Origin: Akkermansiaceae bacterium
GTDB taxonomy: Bacteria > Verrucomicrobiota > Verrucomicrobiia > Verrucomicrobiales > Akkermansiaceae
Assembly: GCA_019634595.1 (NCBI GenBank)
Contig: JAHCBC010000007.1
Coordinates: 1 to 64,000, forward strand
Reading direction: 5' to 3'
Length of the DNA: 64,000 nucleotides
The translations under genes were made by a program, and so were the position numbers. The notes under the pieces are model-generated. The model was not told where the DNA came from. It saw nothing but the letters and a program-made list of their open reading frames with translations, and did not search any database. Below are positions 21,731 through 29,210 of this stretch, piece by piece. Each line of letters begins with the position of its first letter. The first letter of the stretch is position 1.

Positions 21731-22603
21731 TCAGAACCGAAGCTTGAAACGGAAAAATGAGCCGATGAAAAGCACTCCTCCTGTTAGGATGATCGCCGCG
21801 CCGAGGTTGCAGTTGGCCCAGGTGGCCAGATAGATGCCACCGATGGAGGAGAGCACGGCGTGGAGGATCACCCCGGTGAGGACGCCCGGCAGACGCTTGG
21901 ACACCAGCAGCGCGGAGGCGGCGGGCAGCACCAGCAGGGCGACCGACATGACCGCTCCGACCGTCTGGAAAGCGGCCACCACCACGGCGGCGGTGGCACC
22001 GAGGAGCATCGACTGGGACCGGGCCGGGGCCTGGTCGGTCAGCTTTGAAAGCACCGGATCGAACGAAGTCGCCAGCAGGCGGTGGTAGAGCAGGGTGATG
22101 AAAAGGATGGCTCCCGCGGCGGCGGCTCCCGATGTCAGCGTGATATTGGGGACGTCCAGATTGAGAAACCGTGTGGTCTCCCCGTGAATGGCGGTTTCCA
22201 GGTTTCCGAAAAGCACGCAGTCCGGATCCAGATCCACCTTTCCCGCAAATTGGCGGAGCAGCAGCACGCCGATGGAGAACATGGCGGTGAACACCACCCC
22301 GGTGGCGGCGTCCTCGCGGACCCCCGCCTTGCGGTGGAAAAACTCGATCACCATCACCGTGAGCCAGCCGGAGAACGCCGCGCCGAGGATGATCCACGGG
22401 GAGTCCAGCGTGCCGGACACCAGGAAGCCGATGACGATGCCCGGCAGCACGCTGTGGCTGATGGCATCCCCGGTCAGGGACATCCTCCGCAGGACCAGGA
22501 AGGCACCGGGCAGGCCGCAGGCGATGGCGGTGAAGGCGGCGGTGACGGCCAACCAGAGGATGGTCGGGGACTGCCACGGGTCGGTCCAGAAAGACAGGTT
22601 CAT
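21731..22603 (-). CDS. Metal ABC transporter permease (YtgD/ZnuB-like)
   Basis: A 290-residue membrane permease of the ABC-3 family that moves divalent metal (Zn, Mn or Fe) across the inner membrane. It has about eight hydrophobic segments. The family pattern FLVLRRMSLTGDAISHSVLPGI is at about residues 35-56. The start overlaps the stop of the fused permease-repressor gene by four bases (ATGA). In the matching chlamydial operon this position holds ytgD, the second permease. It is the last gene of the operon and is followed by a perfect inverted repeat. Confidence 0.92.
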   Translation of the reverse strand: MNLSFWTDPWQSPTILWLAVTAAFTAIACGLPGAFLVLRRMSLTGDAISHSVLPGIVIGFLVSGTLDSPWIILGAAFSGWLTVMVIEFFHRKAGVREDAATGVVFTAMFSIGVLLLRQFAGKVDLDPDCVLFGNLETAIHGETTRFLNLDVPNITLTSGAAAAGAILFITLLYHRLLATSFDPVLSKLTDQAPARSQSMLLGATAAVVVAAFQTVGAVMSVALLVLPAASALLVSKRLPGVLTGVILHAVLSSIGGIYLATWANCNLGAAIILTGGVLFIGSFFRFKLRF

Positions 22604-23868
22604 GGTCGCGCCTCCTTTCCGTCATCTTCCGCAGGGATGCGGCTGCCGTGCGGGTCCAGCTCCTGCCGCCCGAGCCGTTCCTCCAGCCGGCGGCGGCCTT
22701 CCTCATCCAGCCAGTGTTCCGCCCGCTCGGCGGATTCGTGGACGTGGTCCGGCTTGTAGGATGCCCGCTCCGTCAGATAGCGCTCCCACAGGCGGTGGGC
22801 GCGCACCAGGCTGGCGGCGAACTTCCGGCCGGACCGGGTGAGGGATACCTTGTATTCGCTGACCTCCACCCATCCCGAGGAGGTGAGCTTGCGGAGGGCG
22901 GCCGCGACATTTCCCGGGATCGCCTGGCGGAACTCGGCTGTGGGCAGCGCGACATCCTTGCCCACCACTTCCTCCCGCTGCCACAGGCGTTTCAGCATAT
23001 CCTCACCCACGATGCGGATGCGCTCCCGGCGCCTGCGCAGCAGGGTGGGCACCCATCCGGAGCGTTTGCCGAAAAGGGTGGCACCGAGAAAGATCGCGGT
23101 CACGGACAGCGCCATCAGCGGGCCGGTCGGCAGGCCGCCGCCTTGGGCGGAAATCGTGACGCCGGACACACCGCCCGCCGCTCCGAAGATGCAGGAAAGC
23201 AGCGCGGTCCGTGGGAGGGAGGCCGTGCAGAACCGCGCCGCCGCCGCAGGGGTGACCAGCATGGCCGTCACCAGCACCACGCCCACCGCCTGCATGGCGA
23301 TGACGATGACGATGGTCAGCAACAGGAAAAACCCGATCTCGATCCATTTCACCGGCAGCCCCATCAGACGGGAGAAGGCCGGATCGAACGAAACGATGCC
23401 CAGCACCCGGAACAGGAGTGGCAGCAGGACCGCCGTGAACAGCGTGACCACGGTCAGCAGGATCAGGTCGTTGCGGTCGATCGCCGCCACCTGTCCATAG
23501 AGGAATGCCTGCACCCCGGCGGGCTGCAGCTTGGAGATCATTGCGATGCCGAAGGCGAAGAACACCGACAACACCAGTGCCAGCGCGGCATCACCCTTCA
23601 GCTTCGTGTGGCGGAGGATGGCGGTCAGCGTCAGCGTGCCGATGACACCGGCCGCGACGGCACAACCGAGGACAACCAGCGGATTCCTCGTGGTGCTCCA
23701 TGCCAGACCGGCGACGATGCCCGGCAGCACGGCGTGCGAGATCATGTCTCCCGTCAGCGCCATCCGGCGCACGACCACAAAGGTCCCGAGTAGTCCGGAA
23801 ACCACGCCCAGCAGCAGGGCGGCGATCACCGCCGAGGAGATCGCCGCGACCGTGAACGCCATGGTCAT
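22600..23868 (-). CDS. Metal permease fused to a DtxR/MntR-type repressor (YtgCR-like)
   Basis: A 422-residue fusion. Residues 1-275 are an ABC-3 metal permease (VVRRMALTGDMISHAVLPGI near 32-51, about eight membrane segments). Residues 280-412 are a metalloregulator: a winged helix near 285-345, then the DtxR-type metal-binding and dimerisation helices. VRAHRLWE (His358, Glu362) and HVHESAERAEH (His377, Glu381, Glu384, His385) hold the ligands. The DtxR Cys position is Glu, as in MntR. ELDPHGSRIP ends the domain. The chlamydial YtgCR has this architecture, and there the repressor is released by cleavage. Linked by ATGA overlaps to both neighbours. Confidence 0.93.
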   Translation of the reverse strand: MTMAFTVAAISSAVIAALLLGVVSGLLGTFVVVRRMALTGDMISHAVLPGIVAGLAWSTTRNPLVVLGCAVAAGVIGTLTLTAILRHTKLKGDAALALVLSVFFAFGIAMISKLQPAGVQAFLYGQVAAIDRNDLILLTVVTLFTAVLLPLLFRVLGIVSFDPAFSRLMGLPVKWIEIGFFLLLTIVIVIAMQAVGVVLVTAMLVTPAAAARFCTASLPRTALLSCIFGAAGGVSGVTISAQGGGLPTGPLMALSVTAIFLGATLFGKRSGWVPTLLRRRRERIRIVGEDMLKRLWQREEVVGKDVALPTAEFRQAIPGNVAAALRKLTSSGWVEVSEYKVSLTRSGRKFAASLVRAHRLWERYLTERASYKPDHVHESAERAEHWLDEEGRRRLEERLGRQELDPHGSRIPAEDDGKEARP

Positions 23869-24641
23869 GGAGCCTTGCCTCCTTCTCCGCGTGCGGCGCG
23901 GTTGGAAATCTCACTGAGCATCGTCAGCTTTCCGCCGTAGGTCTGGTTGAGGATCTCCGGCACGAAGACCTCTGTCGTCGGACCATGGGCGACCACATGG
24001 CCGTTGAGCAGCAGAAGCCGGTCGAAATAACGCTCCGCCGTCTGGAGGTCATGGTGGACGACGATGACCGTCTTTCCCTCATCCCGGAGTCCATGGAGCA
24101 GCGAGACGATGGTGCGCTCCGTGGCGATGTCCACTCCGGCGAACGGTTCATCCATCAGATAGATCTCCGCCTGCTGGGCGAGCGCCCGTGCAAGGAAGGT
24201 CCGCTGCTGCTGGCCGCCGCTGAGTTCGCCGATCTGGCGTCCCGCGAGGTCCGCGATGCCGGTCTGCTCCAGCGCCTCCCGTGCCCGCGCCTTCTCCGCC
24301 TTTCCGGGTCGTCCGAACCAGCCGAGCTTCGCATACGTCCCCATCAGCGCCACATCCGCCACGGTCACCGGGAAATCCCAATCCACCGACTCCCGCTGCG
24401 GCACGTAGCCGATACGGCCCAGCACCTGGTCCAGCGGCTTGCCCAGCAGTTTCACCCACCCGGTGTCCGGCTTCACCACATCCATGATGGCCTTCAGCAG
24501 GGTGGACTTTCCGGCCCCGTTGGGACCCATGATACCGGTCAGAGAACCATAGGGGATCTCCACGTCCACACCATGCAGCACGGGCTTCCCCCGGTAGGAG
24601 ACGGACAGGTCGTGGGTTTCCAGGGCCGGATTGCTTTTCAT
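23865..24641 (-). CDS. Metal ABC transporter ATP-binding protein (YtgB/ZnuC-like)
   Basis: A 258-residue ATPase that powers the two permeases. Walker A is GPNGAGKST, the Q-loop follows in YVPQRESVDWDFPVTV, the signature is LSGGQQQR and Walker B ends in YLMDEPF. The H-loop His is in IVVHHDL. The QRESVDWDFPV segment is typical of Mn/Zn/Fe uptake ATPases. The ATG at 24641 (MKSNPALE) is chosen over a longer frame reaching 24692 because it leaves one base to the stop of the outer-membrane protein gene. Its stop overlaps the start of the fusion gene. Confidence 0.95.
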   Translation of the reverse strand: MKSNPALETHDLSVSYRGKPVLHGVDVEIPYGSLTGIMGPNGAGKSTLLKAIMDVVKPDTGWVKLLGKPLDQVLGRIGYVPQRESVDWDFPVTVADVALMGTYAKLGWFGRPGKAEKARAREALEQTGIADLAGRQIGELSGGQQQRTFLARALAQQAEIYLMDEPFAGVDIATERTIVSLLHGLRDEGKTVIVVHHDLQTAERYFDRLLLLNGHVVAHGPTTEVFVPEILNQTYGGKLTMLSEISNRAARGEGGKAP

Positions 24642-24642
24642 G

Positions 24643-25401
24643 TCAGAAACGGAAGGTGACGCCTTGGGCGACGGAGAAGTCCTCCGCAGCATCGTTCAGG
24701 CCGACTCCGACGGCAATATCCCATTGGAGGTTTTCCGTGGATGCCCAGGTGAGTCCCACGTTCCCGGTGGCTTCATAGTCACCGTCACCCGCAACCCCCA
24801 CATACTCGATGAACAGGCCCAGCTTTTCCGTGAGGGAGACGCCCAGCACGGCGGAGTGGAGGAAATCCCACTCGTATTCGCCGCTGTCGCCTTCCCATAC
24901 CCGCGCCGCCTCGACCTGGAAGCCAAGGCCGAGCCGTTCCGTCAGCTCGATGGAGACGGGGAAGATCACTCCGCCTTCCCACTCGCCGCTGCTGACGGCG
25001 GTCTGGGAGGGGATGGAAACATAGGGCATCAGCGCACCGGCGGTTTTGCCTCCGTCATTTCCCCAGAGGTTGTGTTTCAGCCGCAGTTCGATGTCGCCGA
25101 AGCCTTCGCTCGTTTCACCATCGGCCTGCTCGTGGATCCATGGACGCAGGACAAGCTGGAGGTCGCTCGAAGCGGTCAGGCCCGCCTTGAGGTTCATCTC
25201 GCCGAGCGTCCATGTTTCGTCGGAGCCATCCTTGCCGAAGGCCCACACGCTGGACTCCACCTGGAACCTTCCGGCCTCCACGGTGATCGGGCTTTCCGTG
25301 GTGTCCGGCCGGTCGGCGGAGAGTTCGCGCTGGAACTCCGCGGCGTGGAGGGTAGGGAGAAGGAGAGGGAAAAGGAACAGTGGTTTCATGGTGGTGATCA
25401 T
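24643..25401 (-). CDS. Outer-membrane beta-barrel protein (transporter/phenol_MetA_deg-like)
   Basis: A 252-residue exported protein. A signal peptide is followed by ELSADRPDTTESPITVEAGRFQVE, the hallmark of the PF13557 barrel family, and the chain ends in an aromatic residue (VTFRF) as outer-membrane barrels do. It lies between the binding-protein gene and the ATPase gene, a position with no counterpart in the chlamydial operon. It may give metal a route across the outer membrane. The start at 25401 overlaps the previous stop as ATGA; an ATG at 25389 is also possible. Confidence 0.8.
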   Translation of the reverse strand: MITTMKPLFLFPLLLPTLHAAEFQRELSADRPDTTESPITVEAGRFQVESSVWAFGKDGSDETWTLGEMNLKAGLTASSDLQLVLRPWIHEQADGETSEGFGDIELRLKHNLWGNDGGKTAGALMPYVSIPSQTAVSSGEWEGGVIFPVSIELTERLGLGFQVEAARVWEGDSGEYEWDFLHSAVLGVSLTEKLGLFIEYVGVAGDGDYEATGNVGLTWASTENLQWDIAVGVGLNDAAEDFSVAQGVTFRF

Positions 25402-26336
25402 TTCAGGCCCTTCACGACGGAGTTGATGTTGTGCTTCACCATGCCGATGTAGGTGCCCTTGTCGTAGGTCTCACCGTCCACGGTTGCCGTGTCACCCGGC
25501 GCGCCCAGCGCGTCGGAAAACAGGGGTTGGTCGGACACTGCCACACCGGCCTCTGCGGCGACGGCGGAGATGCCTTTCTCATTGATGGAGGTTTCCGCGA
25601 ACACGGTCTTCACTCCCTGGCTGCGCAGGTATTCCACCAGTTTGCTGCGGTCTTTCAGGCCCGCCTCTGCGGTGGTGGAGACGCCTTGGAGTCCCCGCAC
25701 CTCGAAGCCGAACGCGCGGCCGAAGTAGAAGAAAGCGTCATGGCTCGTCACCAGGATCCGCTTTTCCCGGGGGATCGTGGAGATCTTCTCCTTTGCCCAT
25801 GCGGACAGCTCGTCGAGCTGCTTTTTGTAAGCTTCACCGTTCGCCTGATAGGCCGCCGCGCCATCCGGGTCCGCCTTGGTGATCGCGGCCACAGCGGTAT
25901 CGACCGTCTGTTTCCACAGCAGGGGATCACCCCAAACGTGCGGGTCCTTTGTTCCCTCGAAGTCTTCCTGCGGGGAAAGCAGGCTGGCCGGATCGATCCC
26001 ATCGGTCACCGCGACCACATTTCGGCCGCGCTTTGCCATCGCCTCCAGCGTGGTCTGGAAGCGGCCTTCCAGGTGCAGGCCGCCATAGAGCACGACGTCC
26101 GCCTTCTCCAGCAGGTTCGTGTCGGCCAGCTTCGGCACATAGTTGTGGGGATCCACACCCGGTCCCATCAGCCCGCGCACCTCGACGCGGTCGCCTCCGA
26201 TGACCTTCGCCAGGTCCGCGACCATGGTGGTGGTCGCCGCGACCACCGGCTTTCCGCTCCTGGCGGTTTCCGACTTCGTGCAGGAGACAGCCAGCAGAGC
26301 GCCGGCCATCAACATCAATGGTTTCATGAACATCAT
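25398..26336 (-). CDS. Metal ABC transporter substrate-binding lipoprotein (YtgA/ZnuA/MntA-like)
   Basis: A 312-residue cluster-9 (TroA-type) binding protein. A lipoprotein signal ends at SC (AVSCTKSE). The metal ligands of this family can be placed: His in DPHNY, His in DPHVWGDP, Glu in VFAETSIN and Asp in LFSDALG. This His, His, Glu, Asp set fits Mn or Fe-type members more than the three-His Zn type, and there is no long His-rich loop. First gene of the operon. Several ATGs lie at the start (26336, 26333, 26327). A promoter and palindrome lie upstream. Confidence 0.92.
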   Translation of the reverse strand: MMFMKPLMLMAGALLAVSCTKSETARSGKPVVAATTTMVADLAKVIGGDRVEVRGLMGPGVDPHNYVPKLADTNLLEKADVVLYGGLHLEGRFQTTLEAMAKRGRNVVAVTDGIDPASLLSPQEDFEGTKDPHVWGDPLLWKQTVDTAVAAITKADPDGAAAYQANGEAYKKQLDELSAWAKEKISTIPREKRILVTSHDAFFYFGRAFGFEVRGLQGVSTTAEAGLKDRSKLVEYLRSQGVKTVFAETSINEKGISAVAAEAGVAVSDQPLFSDALGAPGDTATVDGETYDKGTYIGMVKHNINSVVKGLK

Positions 26337-26379
26337 GGACGGACCCTAACAACAATCGGATCACTCGCAACTGAAAAAA

Positions 26380-26393
26380 TTAGCTTATGCTAA
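26380..26393. promoter_or_regulatory. Putative operator palindrome of the metal operon
   Basis: TTAGC at 26380-26384 and GCTAA at 26389-26393 form a perfect inverted repeat with a four-base spacer (TTAT on the plus strand). It lies directly downstream of the predicted minus-strand -10 box, so it covers the likely transcription start, and is about 44 bases from the first gene. The spacing and symmetry suit a dimeric repressor, and the operon encodes a DtxR/MntR-type domain. Binding is an inference. Confidence 0.6.
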
Positions 26394-26398
26394 AATTG

Positions 26399-26427
26399 AT
26401 TGTAATGGATAAATGATCGGTTGTCAG
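26399..26427 (-). promoter_or_regulatory. Predicted sigma-70 promoter of the metal operon
   Basis: On the minus strand CTGACA (26422-26427) and TACAAT (26399-26404) are separated by 17 bases, close to the consensus. The putative operator starts six bases downstream. The nearby AT-rich sequence is unusual in this GC-rich window. Confidence 0.65.
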
Positions 26428-26508: not shown

Positions 26509-28584
26509 TCACCACTTCACCTCGCAGCCGATGCCCAGCACGCGCGGTGCGCCGATGTCCGCGTTCATGGACGGCACCACCAGCCCGACCATCCGTGCCT
26601 TGGCGTAGCGGTCGTCCAGCAGGTTGTTGCCGAACACATGGACACTGACGTTCTCCCACGCGTAGCCGAGGCGGACGGAGAGGAGCTTGCGCGTTTCCAC
26701 GCTGGTCACCGCGGCGTCCTGCACCGTGGTGAAGCTGGTGTCCGCCCAGGTGAAGCGTGAGGATGCGAACCACCCGCTGGGATGTTGGAAGGCCAACCCC
26801 ACACTCGCGGTCAGCTCCGGTGCGTTGGAGAACTTGCTTCCGGAAAAGTCGGCTCCCTGAAGCTGCAGATCCCGGTATTCCGTGTGCAGCCATCCCAGCC
26901 CGGCATGGCCGGTGAAGCATTCGGACATCTTCCAGCGTGACTCGATCTCCGCCCCGTAACGTCGGGAACTGGATGAGTTCGCGATGAGCTGATCCAGGAC
27001 CGCGACCCCTCCGGCAGCCGCGAATGGCACCTGCTGGTCCTCGATCGCCGATGCGAACACATTGAACGACACGGCCAGATCCGTCCGTGGCTTGTAGTCC
27101 ACGTAAAGCTCCGCGTCCCAGCTTGATTCCTCATCATAAGGACGGGCGATCGCGAGGGTCGCCGCATAGGCGACGCCGCCCGCACGGTGACCGCGGCTCA
27201 CCCGGAGTCCGGCTTCCACCTGTTCGTGCCCCGTCCAGTGGATGCCGAGTTCCGGCAGGATGGCGCTGTCGCTCGTCCTGTCATCCGCGAAGCGCGCGGG
27301 GAAAAGGAACCGTGTGGAGGCGTCCACATCCCTCCGCTCATGCAGGGCTCTCAATCCGCCGCTGATCCTCCATGCGGGGGAAAGCTTCCAGTTGAGGCTG
27401 CCGAACACGGCATACTTCGTGACATCCTCATCCAGTGTGATGTCGAACGGGCTGCCGCCGGGGAGGGGGAAGATGCCCACGCCCGCGTTGCCGGTTTCAT
27501 AGCGGCTCGATTCGAAGTAGGCCCCCAGCTTCCAGTCCAGTGTCTCACCCTGCCTCTCAAGCAGGACGTCCTGGGTGACGCGGAATTCATCGTTGTAGCC
27601 TTTCGCGAACCAGTTGAGGAAAGGGGAGGAGTCCAGGTCCAGCAGCCTGCCGAGGTCGAACCTCTGGACCGTGCTCAGGGAGGTCAGCGTCAGATCGTTG
27701 CCCAGCGAGAAATTGCCCTTGAGCGAGCCGAACCAATGGTCCGCCGGAAAGGAGGGTTCCGTATTCCGTGCCGTCTTGCCATCCAGCTCATTGCCGATCA
27801 GGCCCGCCACCCGGAGTGTGTTGCCCAGGGAGTTTCCCCGCGAGCCATCATACCCAGCATTCAGAACGACGGAGTCCCCTCCGCCGAACCTGGGTTTCCA
27901 CAGCAGGGTGGCGGTATGCCGCTGGCGTTCGGTGGCGGCGAACTGGTGGTTACCATAGGTGATGTTCTCCAGGTGGCCGTCGGACTCCTCCCAGTGGGAG
28001 GAAAAACGGAGGGTCAGCTCATCCGGGAGGATCACCAGGTTCTGCGACAGATAGGCGCGGCGGAAGCCATAGTCACCCGCACTGAGGGCCGCCTTCCCCG
28101 CGAAGGAGAACTCCGGGAGCGGGGAGGTGAAACGGAGCGCACCGCCCAGCGACGACGCGCCGGGAGTGACGATCTGGGGACCATTGGCGATCTCCATCCC
28201 ATCCAGATCCGTCACCAGCGGCGGGAGGTAGGTGAGGACATGGTAGGAAAGCGGGATGCCATCGCGGGTGGCCGTGATCAGCGGGTTCGAGCTGGTACCC
28301 ACCGTGGAGAACATGCTTTCCTGGCCCAGGCCACGCAGGGTGAAGCCCAGCGAAAAATCCCCGGACACATAGGCATTCGGAACGGCAGGCAACAGGTCGA
28401 GGAAGTTGGGGCTGGCCGTGGCCGCCGCATCGAGATCCTCTTTCTGGATGGTGTGCGAGTAGGAGGAGTCCGAAGTCGTGGCGCGTTGCGCGGTGACTTC
28501 GATCTCGGGAAGTGCATTCACATGCAGGCTCTGGGCGAGGGACGCACAGAGGATGATAGGAGTGTTCCGACGGCTCATCCGCAT
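26509..28584 (-). CDS. TonB-dependent outer-membrane receptor
   Basis: A 691-residue receptor. The signal peptide is followed by PEIEVTAQR, a TonB-box-like start, and a plug domain (about 30-150; LRGLGQESMF and VTDLDGMEIANGPQIVTPG). The rest is a beta-barrel ending in an aromatic residue (GCEVKW). An ATG at 28584 (MRMSRRN) begins the signal peptide; the frame continues to 28920 but then overlaps the DUF3592 gene. It lies just upstream of the metal operon on the same strand, behind its own terminator, which suggests it imports a metal or metallophore. No ligand can be read from the sequence. Confidence 0.88.
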   Translation of the reverse strand: MRMSRRNTPIILCASLAQSLHVNALPEIEVTAQRATTSDSSYSHTIQKEDLDAAATASPNFLDLLPAVPNAYVSGDFSLGFTLRGLGQESMFSTVGTSSNPLITATRDGIPLSYHVLTYLPPLVTDLDGMEIANGPQIVTPGASSLGGALRFTSPLPEFSFAGKAALSAGDYGFRRAYLSQNLVILPDELTLRFSSHWEESDGHLENITYGNHQFAATERQRHTATLLWKPRFGGGDSVVLNAGYDGSRGNSLGNTLRVAGLIGNELDGKTARNTEPSFPADHWFGSLKGNFSLGNDLTLTSLSTVQRFDLGRLLDLDSSPFLNWFAKGYNDEFRVTQDVLLERQGETLDWKLGAYFESSRYETGNAGVGIFPLPGGSPFDITLDEDVTKYAVFGSLNWKLSPAWRISGGLRALHERRDVDASTRFLFPARFADDRTSDSAILPELGIHWTGHEQVEAGLRVSRGHRAGGVAYAATLAIARPYDEESSWDAELYVDYKPRTDLAVSFNVFASAIEDQQVPFAAAGGVAVLDQLIANSSSSRRYGAEIESRWKMSECFTGHAGLGWLHTEYRDLQLQGADFSGSKFSNAPELTASVGLAFQHPSGWFASSRFTWADTSFTTVQDAAVTSVETRKLLSVRLGYAWENVSVHVFGNNLLDDRYAKARMVGLVVPSMNADIGAPRVLGIGCEVKW

Positions 28585-28694
28585 CAGGGTTTTTTCCACG
28601 CGGAAACTGTCAGCCGCTGCCTTTGAGGCAATCTTATTCAAACACGAAAATTTCCGCTTTTCCCCAAAAGGGATGACCTTGCAGAAAGCTGGGT

Positions 28695-29210
28695 TCATGC
28701 GCTTTCCGGCGGCTTCCTGCCTGCCGTGAAGGCCCGCACGGTGATGCCGAGTCCGCCGGCCACGAAAAGGGCGGGGAACCAGATGGAGTAGCCGGGGGCC
28801 TTCGTGTCCGGCTTGAGAACCGAGAAATCCGGGTTCTGCGGATCGACCCGGCAGGTGGTGCTGGTGCCTTCCTTGAAGGCGTCCAGACGCTCCTGGATCA
28901 CATCGGGCTTCGACGTCCACGGATTGCCGCGCCAGGTCATGTGGTCACCCGTCCGCGCCTGGCCGTTGAACTCGTAGCCGTAGGTCACGTTGACCCGGTA
29001 TTCCGCGGGCGAGTTCGGATCGATCCTGCGTTCTTCGGCTTTGGACTCGATGATCACGCACCGCACTTCCGGCCATGATTGCATGTGGCGGGCACGGTCA
29101 AAGCTGCGCCACATGAGCCAGAAAAAGACGCCGCCCATGAGGGCGAGGCTCAGGCCGATCGCGGCGAGATAGAGACGGGCGGCGGTGGAAGGTTTCGCGG
29201 AGGCGGACAT
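28695..29210 (-). CDS. DUF3592 membrane protein
   Basis: A 171-residue protein with two membrane segments (about 13-33 and 142-160) around a soluble domain. The domain has WPEVRCVIIESKAEE, a tyrosine-rich YRVNVTYGYEFNG and the PDFSVLKPD end typical of DUF3592. No function is established. It lies 26 bases from the esterase gene on the same strand and may be co-transcribed. Confidence 0.8.
   Translation of the reverse strand: MSASAKPSTAARLYLAAIGLSLALMGGVFFWLMWRSFDRARHMQSWPEVRCVIIESKAEERRIDPNSPAEYRVNVTYGYEFNGQARTGDHMTWRGNPWTSKPDVIQERLDAFKEGTSTTCRVDPQNPDFSVLKPDTKAPGYSIWFPALFVAGGLGITVRAFTAGRKPPESA

Follow-up and report, generated by a model that had tools for sequence, protein, structure and literature searches.

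A predicted MntR box at the promoter of a metal importer operon encoding a permease–repressor fusion in Akkermansiaceae

Results

The importer operon and its surroundings

The window (the whole analysed stretch of 64,000 nucleotides from the genome of an Akkermansiaceae bacterium) contains a five-gene metal importer operon on its minus strand. The genes and the regulatory elements are listed in Table 1. The gene of the Phenol_MetA_deg-type beta-barrel-like protein recurs in importer operons of the family. At loci L093–L096 and L112 it opens the operon, with a predicted MntR box directly before it. On the same strand, a TonB-dependent receptor gene (26509–28800) ends approximately 80 bp 5’ of the operator region and is followed by a terminator-like hairpin (26472–26453); the receptor might serve the importer as its partner in the outer membrane.

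Table 1. Genes of the importer operon and elements of its upstream region, in window coordinates.
Feature	Coordinates	Strand	Remarks
ABC-3 permease, second	21731..22603	-	operon gene
ABC-3 permease fused to DtxR-type domain, YtgCR-like	22600..23868	-	PF00950 and PF02742 in one protein
ABC ATPase	23865..24692	-	operon gene
Outer-membrane beta-barrel-like protein	24643..25401	-	Pfam Phenol_MetA_deg
Metal-binding lipoprotein, ZnuA/MntA-type	25398..26336	-	first gene; PF01297, E 6e-77
Probable −10 box TAGGGT	26343..26348	-	weak; start site probably at or beside the ATG, given the constant TTG-to-ATG distance shared by both operator classes
Probable −35 box TTGCGA	26365..26370	-	34 nt before ATG; TTG[AC] here in all aligned relatives; identical in the sister species
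Predicted MntR operator, strong, 18 bp, TTTTAGCATAAGCTAATT	26378..26395	-	8 of 8 invariant TTAG/CTAA bases present; genome-unique; encloses the 14-bp palindrome 26380–26393
Predicted second operator, weak, ATTTATCCATTACAATCA	26397..26414	-	centre 19 bp upstream of the main site; includes TACAAT
CTGACA, −35 box of the earlier note	26422..26427	-	not conserved; probably fortuitous or species-specific

The palindrome and its uniqueness in the genome

The perfect 5-4-5 inverted repeat TTAGCATAAGCTAA occupies positions 26393–26380 of the minus strand, exactly as described in the earlier note on this DNA. A bare palindrome of this kind is weak evidence by the chance estimate: with at most one mismatch, TTAGC-N4-GCTAA has a chance expectation of 0.25 occurrences per window, and at least one match was found in 21 of 100 shuffles. 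The entire genome (5.09 Mb) contains a single exact match, compared with five for the reversed control pattern. A blind profile was built from the sites of 35 relatives, with the site of the window and that of its sister species left out. Its top match in the window was the palindrome site (E = 0.005, the runner-up having E = 4.6), and over the entire 5.09 Mb this site was the sole match with E ≤ 10 (E = 0.4). The sites of the relatives had been located by motif search; the resulting circularity was addressed by the shuffle control and by the blind scan. The copy of the sister species taken by itself yielded p = 0.06 in the shuffle control, and core positions 6 and 9 are degenerate in both the window and the sister copies. 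The palindrome is nevertheless above chance, since it is unique in the genome, is matched by the blind profile and has a fixed place in orthologous operons. It is real and conserved, and the genome contains no other predicted DNA switch of this type.

Conservation across the family

From genomes of the family (Akkermansiaceae-like), some 60 loci encoding the fused permease were collected. At most of them a palindrome is found at a fixed position 5’ of the metal-binding protein gene. The family consensus is AATTAGCC-NN-GGCTAATT, an inverted repeat of approximately 18 bp with 9-bp half-sites, and the operator centre lies 47–52 nt before the ATG in 31 of 32 aligned operons. At L052, L053 and L072 the seemingly absent operators were found farther upstream, ahead of the preceding gene. 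Base identity of TTAG/CTAA is kept across the relatives, beyond what mere pairing would demand. Conservation upstream of orthologous operons was the test proposed in the earlier note; the palindrome is conserved across the family, which supports reading it as the promoter operator of a metal repressor of the DtxR/MntR type.

Predicted MntR boxes occur at metal-uptake promoters of the relatives, including fused and unfused ABC operons as well as feo operons. In L055, L056, L080, L081, L094–L096 and L112 the box is situated in the promoter spacer or in the −10 region. L043 carries a further box-like palindrome, ATTAGTCTTGGCTAAA, 3’ of the main operator and overlapping the presumed −10 region. 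One extra exact box match each was observed away from the metal-binding protein gene at L107:1552, L106:1332 and L108:5813; these are possible further members of the regulon. For Verrucomicrobiota, we found no open paper on leaderless starts or on MntR boxes.

A second, weaker site

In the family, the conserved operator is accompanied by a weaker copy farther upstream. When different offsets were scored, the best score outside the main site was found at exactly −19 bp, the same centre-to-centre distance as between neighbouring MntR sites in the Bacillus subtilis structure (PMC11275975). Known MntR sites are 18 bp long and consist of two 9-bp inverted repeats, and neighbouring sites are 1 bp apart (PMC11275975). 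The half-site match of the weaker site is 5 of 7 positions in the window and 6 of 7 in the sister species, with TTATCCAT-N-ACAAT common to both. Judged from this comparison, the TACAAT that had been read as a −10 box is part of the weaker candidate box.

Operator classes and regulator switching

Two operator classes were found before these operons. Class A, to which the window site belongs, is accompanied by a short stand-alone MntR (28 loci), and class B (TTTGA-N4-TCAAA), by a long stand-alone DtxR (nine loci and one more with both regulators), with no cross-overs in either class. In genomes that encode the long regulator, class B palindromes are found at the promoter of the same operon in L058, L061–L066, L068, L070 and L073, and at further loci (L090, L109, L202, L204, L210, L214, L218, L230, L235, L240 and L252), with small variants of the sequence among the listed loci. 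At independent named loci, a divergent short MntR lies beside TTAG-type sites and a divergent long DtxR beside TTTGA-type sites. A third palindrome, ATTGAGA-N5-TCTCAAT, precedes the same importer operon in L085 and L088 (genus g6).

Three changes of operator class are seen on the tree of the fusion protein, each accompanied by a change in the class of the regulator. The occurrence of the predicted MntR box follows the presence of the regulator. Three independent co-switches are too few for significance, and we consider this pattern of sequences as support, not proof.

Promoter and start site

The earlier note had proposed a CTGACA-17-TACAAT promoter with the palindrome lying over the start site. 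The match is present as described, on the minus strand (26427–26422 and 26404–26399, followed by the palindrome), and coincides with the σ70 consensus in 10 of 12 positions; such consensus matches are, however, easily come by, four having been found in 10 kb compared with 1.3 expected from shuffles. Its hexamers are not conserved: CTGACA is missing from the sister species, where blocks TTGCGAGTGATCCGA and TAGGGTCCG are retained, and from all other relatives. The element that is conserved is TTG[AC], found in each of 28 operons at a distance of 34–37 nt upstream of the start codon. It begins 13–16 nt past the operator centre in 22 of 22 loci, compared with 14% of control windows. Further, ten operons carry the unrelated palindrome of class B; in these, TTGA is found 34–35 nt before the ATG, and class B sites overlap this −35 box. 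Given that two unrelated operators share one fixed TTG-to-ATG distance, TTGAC is likely to be the −35 box, with transcription from the AUG.

Because the placement of TTG[AC] is conserved in both operator classes, the mRNA of the operon is probably leaderless, starting at or beside the ATG, and the operator probably adjoins the −35 box on its upstream side. The palindrome would then lie just upstream of the −35 box, and not over the start site. By consensus in the genome of the window, CTGACA/TACAAT outscores TTGCGA/TAGGGT, whose −10 box is poor, and a second, species-specific start at CTGACA/TACAAT may exist.

Stand-alone MntR and the fused domain

The genome of the window encodes two PF02742 proteins, the permease fusion and a stand-alone MntR of 146 aa; there is no long DtxR-type stand-alone regulator among them. 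The mntR gene is not adjacent to the importer operon (contig C4, ~555 kb; L092:1291–1731). Residues D16, E19, H85, E107, E110 and H111 of MntR are invariant in the family, and we take them to match the six Mn ligands of B. subtilis MntR. The similarity to B. subtilis MntR (1ON1) has E = 4.6e-35.

In the 24 genomes having both proteins, the recognition helix is 78% identical in MntR versus 24% in the fused domain. In the same matched genomes, the metal domain of the fused protein is 67% identical and its permease, 53%. The DNA-binding domain PF01325 was detected by Pfam in the stand-alone MntR and not in the fused domain. Lys takes the place of the MntR ligand Glu11 in almost all fusions of clade A. 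The AlphaFold model of the fused protein (pLDDT 85.5) combines a PsaC-like Mn permease with a C-terminal fold like that of the metal repressor DR2539, and according to the model the winged helix is still formed. The net charge of the winged helices is −0.2 in the fused domain and +1.3 in the stand-alone protein, and helix 1 of the fused domain is strongly positive; we attach no weight to this weak difference.

Unfused importer operons carry the same box in genomes where the short MntR is the only PF02742 protein. In genus g11, a more diverged TTAG-N6-CTAA box is located between the divergent mntR and importer genes. No such box was found before the importer operon of G069, a genome without any PF02742 protein. 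In two genomes of the genus, G013 and G053, the box instead precedes a feo operon with a DtxR–FeoA fusion as the first gene, and the short MntR is the only other PF02742 protein.

Predicted MntR boxes lie at L098:2795 and L110:1862 before feo operons whose first gene encodes a DtxR-type metal domain joined to FeoA. Here a DtxR domain has been captured by a second type of transporter.

Discussion

In our preferred reading, the palindrome forms the main half of a tandem MntR box through which MntR loaded with Mn would repress the importer operon; we assign this reading a probability of roughly 0.8. The stand-alone MntR, rather than the fused domain, most likely binds the palindrome. An Mn2+-loaded dimer of the 146-aa protein would occupy the 18-bp site at 26378–26395, and a second dimer could occupy the weaker site 19 bp upstream. 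Bound MntR would deny RNA polymerase access to the neighbouring promoter TTGCGA-16-TAGGGT, the mRNA of which probably begins directly with the start codon (AUG) of the first gene, that for the metal-binding protein. Under Mn2+ scarcity the repressor would be released and the importer operon expressed. The permease-fused DtxR-like domain would be dispensable for reading the site, having kept its metal-binding and dimer core and not a conserved DNA-reading helix.

The earlier note had assigned the palindrome to the repressor encoded in the operon as a fusion. The corresponding scheme, in which the fused domain is cleaved off and represses its own operon, has a precedent in Chlamydia trachomatis, where YtgR is cut from YtgC and represses ytgABCD (PMC6504234, PMC5599777); moreover, the fused domain retains a metal site and its modelled winged-helix fold is close to that of the Mn repressor DR2539. 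We nevertheless consider the fused domain an improbable reader of the operator. Its recognition helix varies while the operator is invariant, PF01325 is undetected in it, Glu11 is lost from the clade-A fusions, and the same operator is found in genomes lacking the fusion. Besides, similar clade B fusions occur with two unrelated operators, which follow the class of the stand-alone regulator. A joint action, with MntR providing most of the repression and the fused domain binding the same box weakly, e.g. as a heterodimer or a tethered partner, would agree with the high conservation of the fused dimer core and its relation to DtxR/MntR-type domains. The unconserved helix and the retention of the box without the fusion make it just as improbable.

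Activation instead of repression, by MntR or another regulator, also seems unlikely, if slightly less so than a role of the fused domain. In B. subtilis, MntR activates mneP from a tandem operator upstream of the −35 box (PMC11275975), and the tandem sites here, with their 19-bp spacing and position upstream of the −35 box, resemble that arrangement. However, the operon encodes an importer, and the position of the box varies among the relatives, being upstream of the −35 box, in the spacer, in the −10 region or, for class B, on the −35 box itself. We prefer repression because of the importer product and because the box stays within reach of the polymerase, where it could block it, despite these shifts. 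Finally, the palindrome might act at the RNA level, its transcript forming a small hairpin ahead of a T run that works as an attenuator or a weak terminator. TTAGC-N4-GCTAA is indeed followed by TTTTTT, and the 31-nt RNA folds with z = −3.6, but the stem is very weak (−4 kcal/mol), the identity of TTAG/CTAA rather than pairing alone is conserved, and the conserved promoter would leave the site untranscribed. This explanation is rejected as highly improbable.

Sites of the MntR-box kind are already known, and the palindrome adds a further predicted example in this family. Like the boxes of mntH and mntABCD in B. subtilis and Escherichia coli, it is an ~18-bp inverted repeat of two 9-bp half-sites at the promoter of a predicted Mn importer, in a genome whose MntR is close to that of B. 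subtilis with all Mn ligands; the 19-bp tandem spacing is also known from the mneP and mntS sites. Unlike those boxes, its half-site is AATTAGCC, it directly precedes the −35 box of what is probably a leaderless promoter, the operon holds a permease–repressor fusion, and its binding is predicted. With chlamydial YtgCR and ytgABCD the locus shares an ABC-3 permease having a C-terminal DtxR-like domain, an ABC metal importer operon and an AT-rich palindrome at the promoter, whereas here there is a separate MntR, the class of which predicts the operator, and the fused DNA-reading helix is not conserved. The resemblance to the YtgR operator is one of gene context only (PMC6504234, PMC5599777). The TTTGA-N4-TCAAA palindromes at the promoter of the same operon in relatives are similar to DtxR/TroR-type operators accompanied by a long stand-alone regulator; the window site differs from them both in sequence class and in regulator.

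Thus, a concrete predicted MntR box is now available at a defined promoter for this bacterial family. The presence of a permease–repressor fusion in an operon does not prove that the fused domain controls that operon. As a tentative view, the fused domain may descend from a repressor, have lost the ability to read DNA and now serve as a built-in metal sensor, throttling the importer in metal-replete cells, with a separate MntR (a long DtxR in other lineages) controlling transcription via the palindrome; the DtxR–FeoA fusions of MntR-boxed feo operons in the genus may reflect the same reuse. Permease–repressor fusions have been reported from 11 phyla (PMC5599777). Whether these widespread fusions act as a second repressor or as a metal-sensing gate on the transporter is now directly testable.
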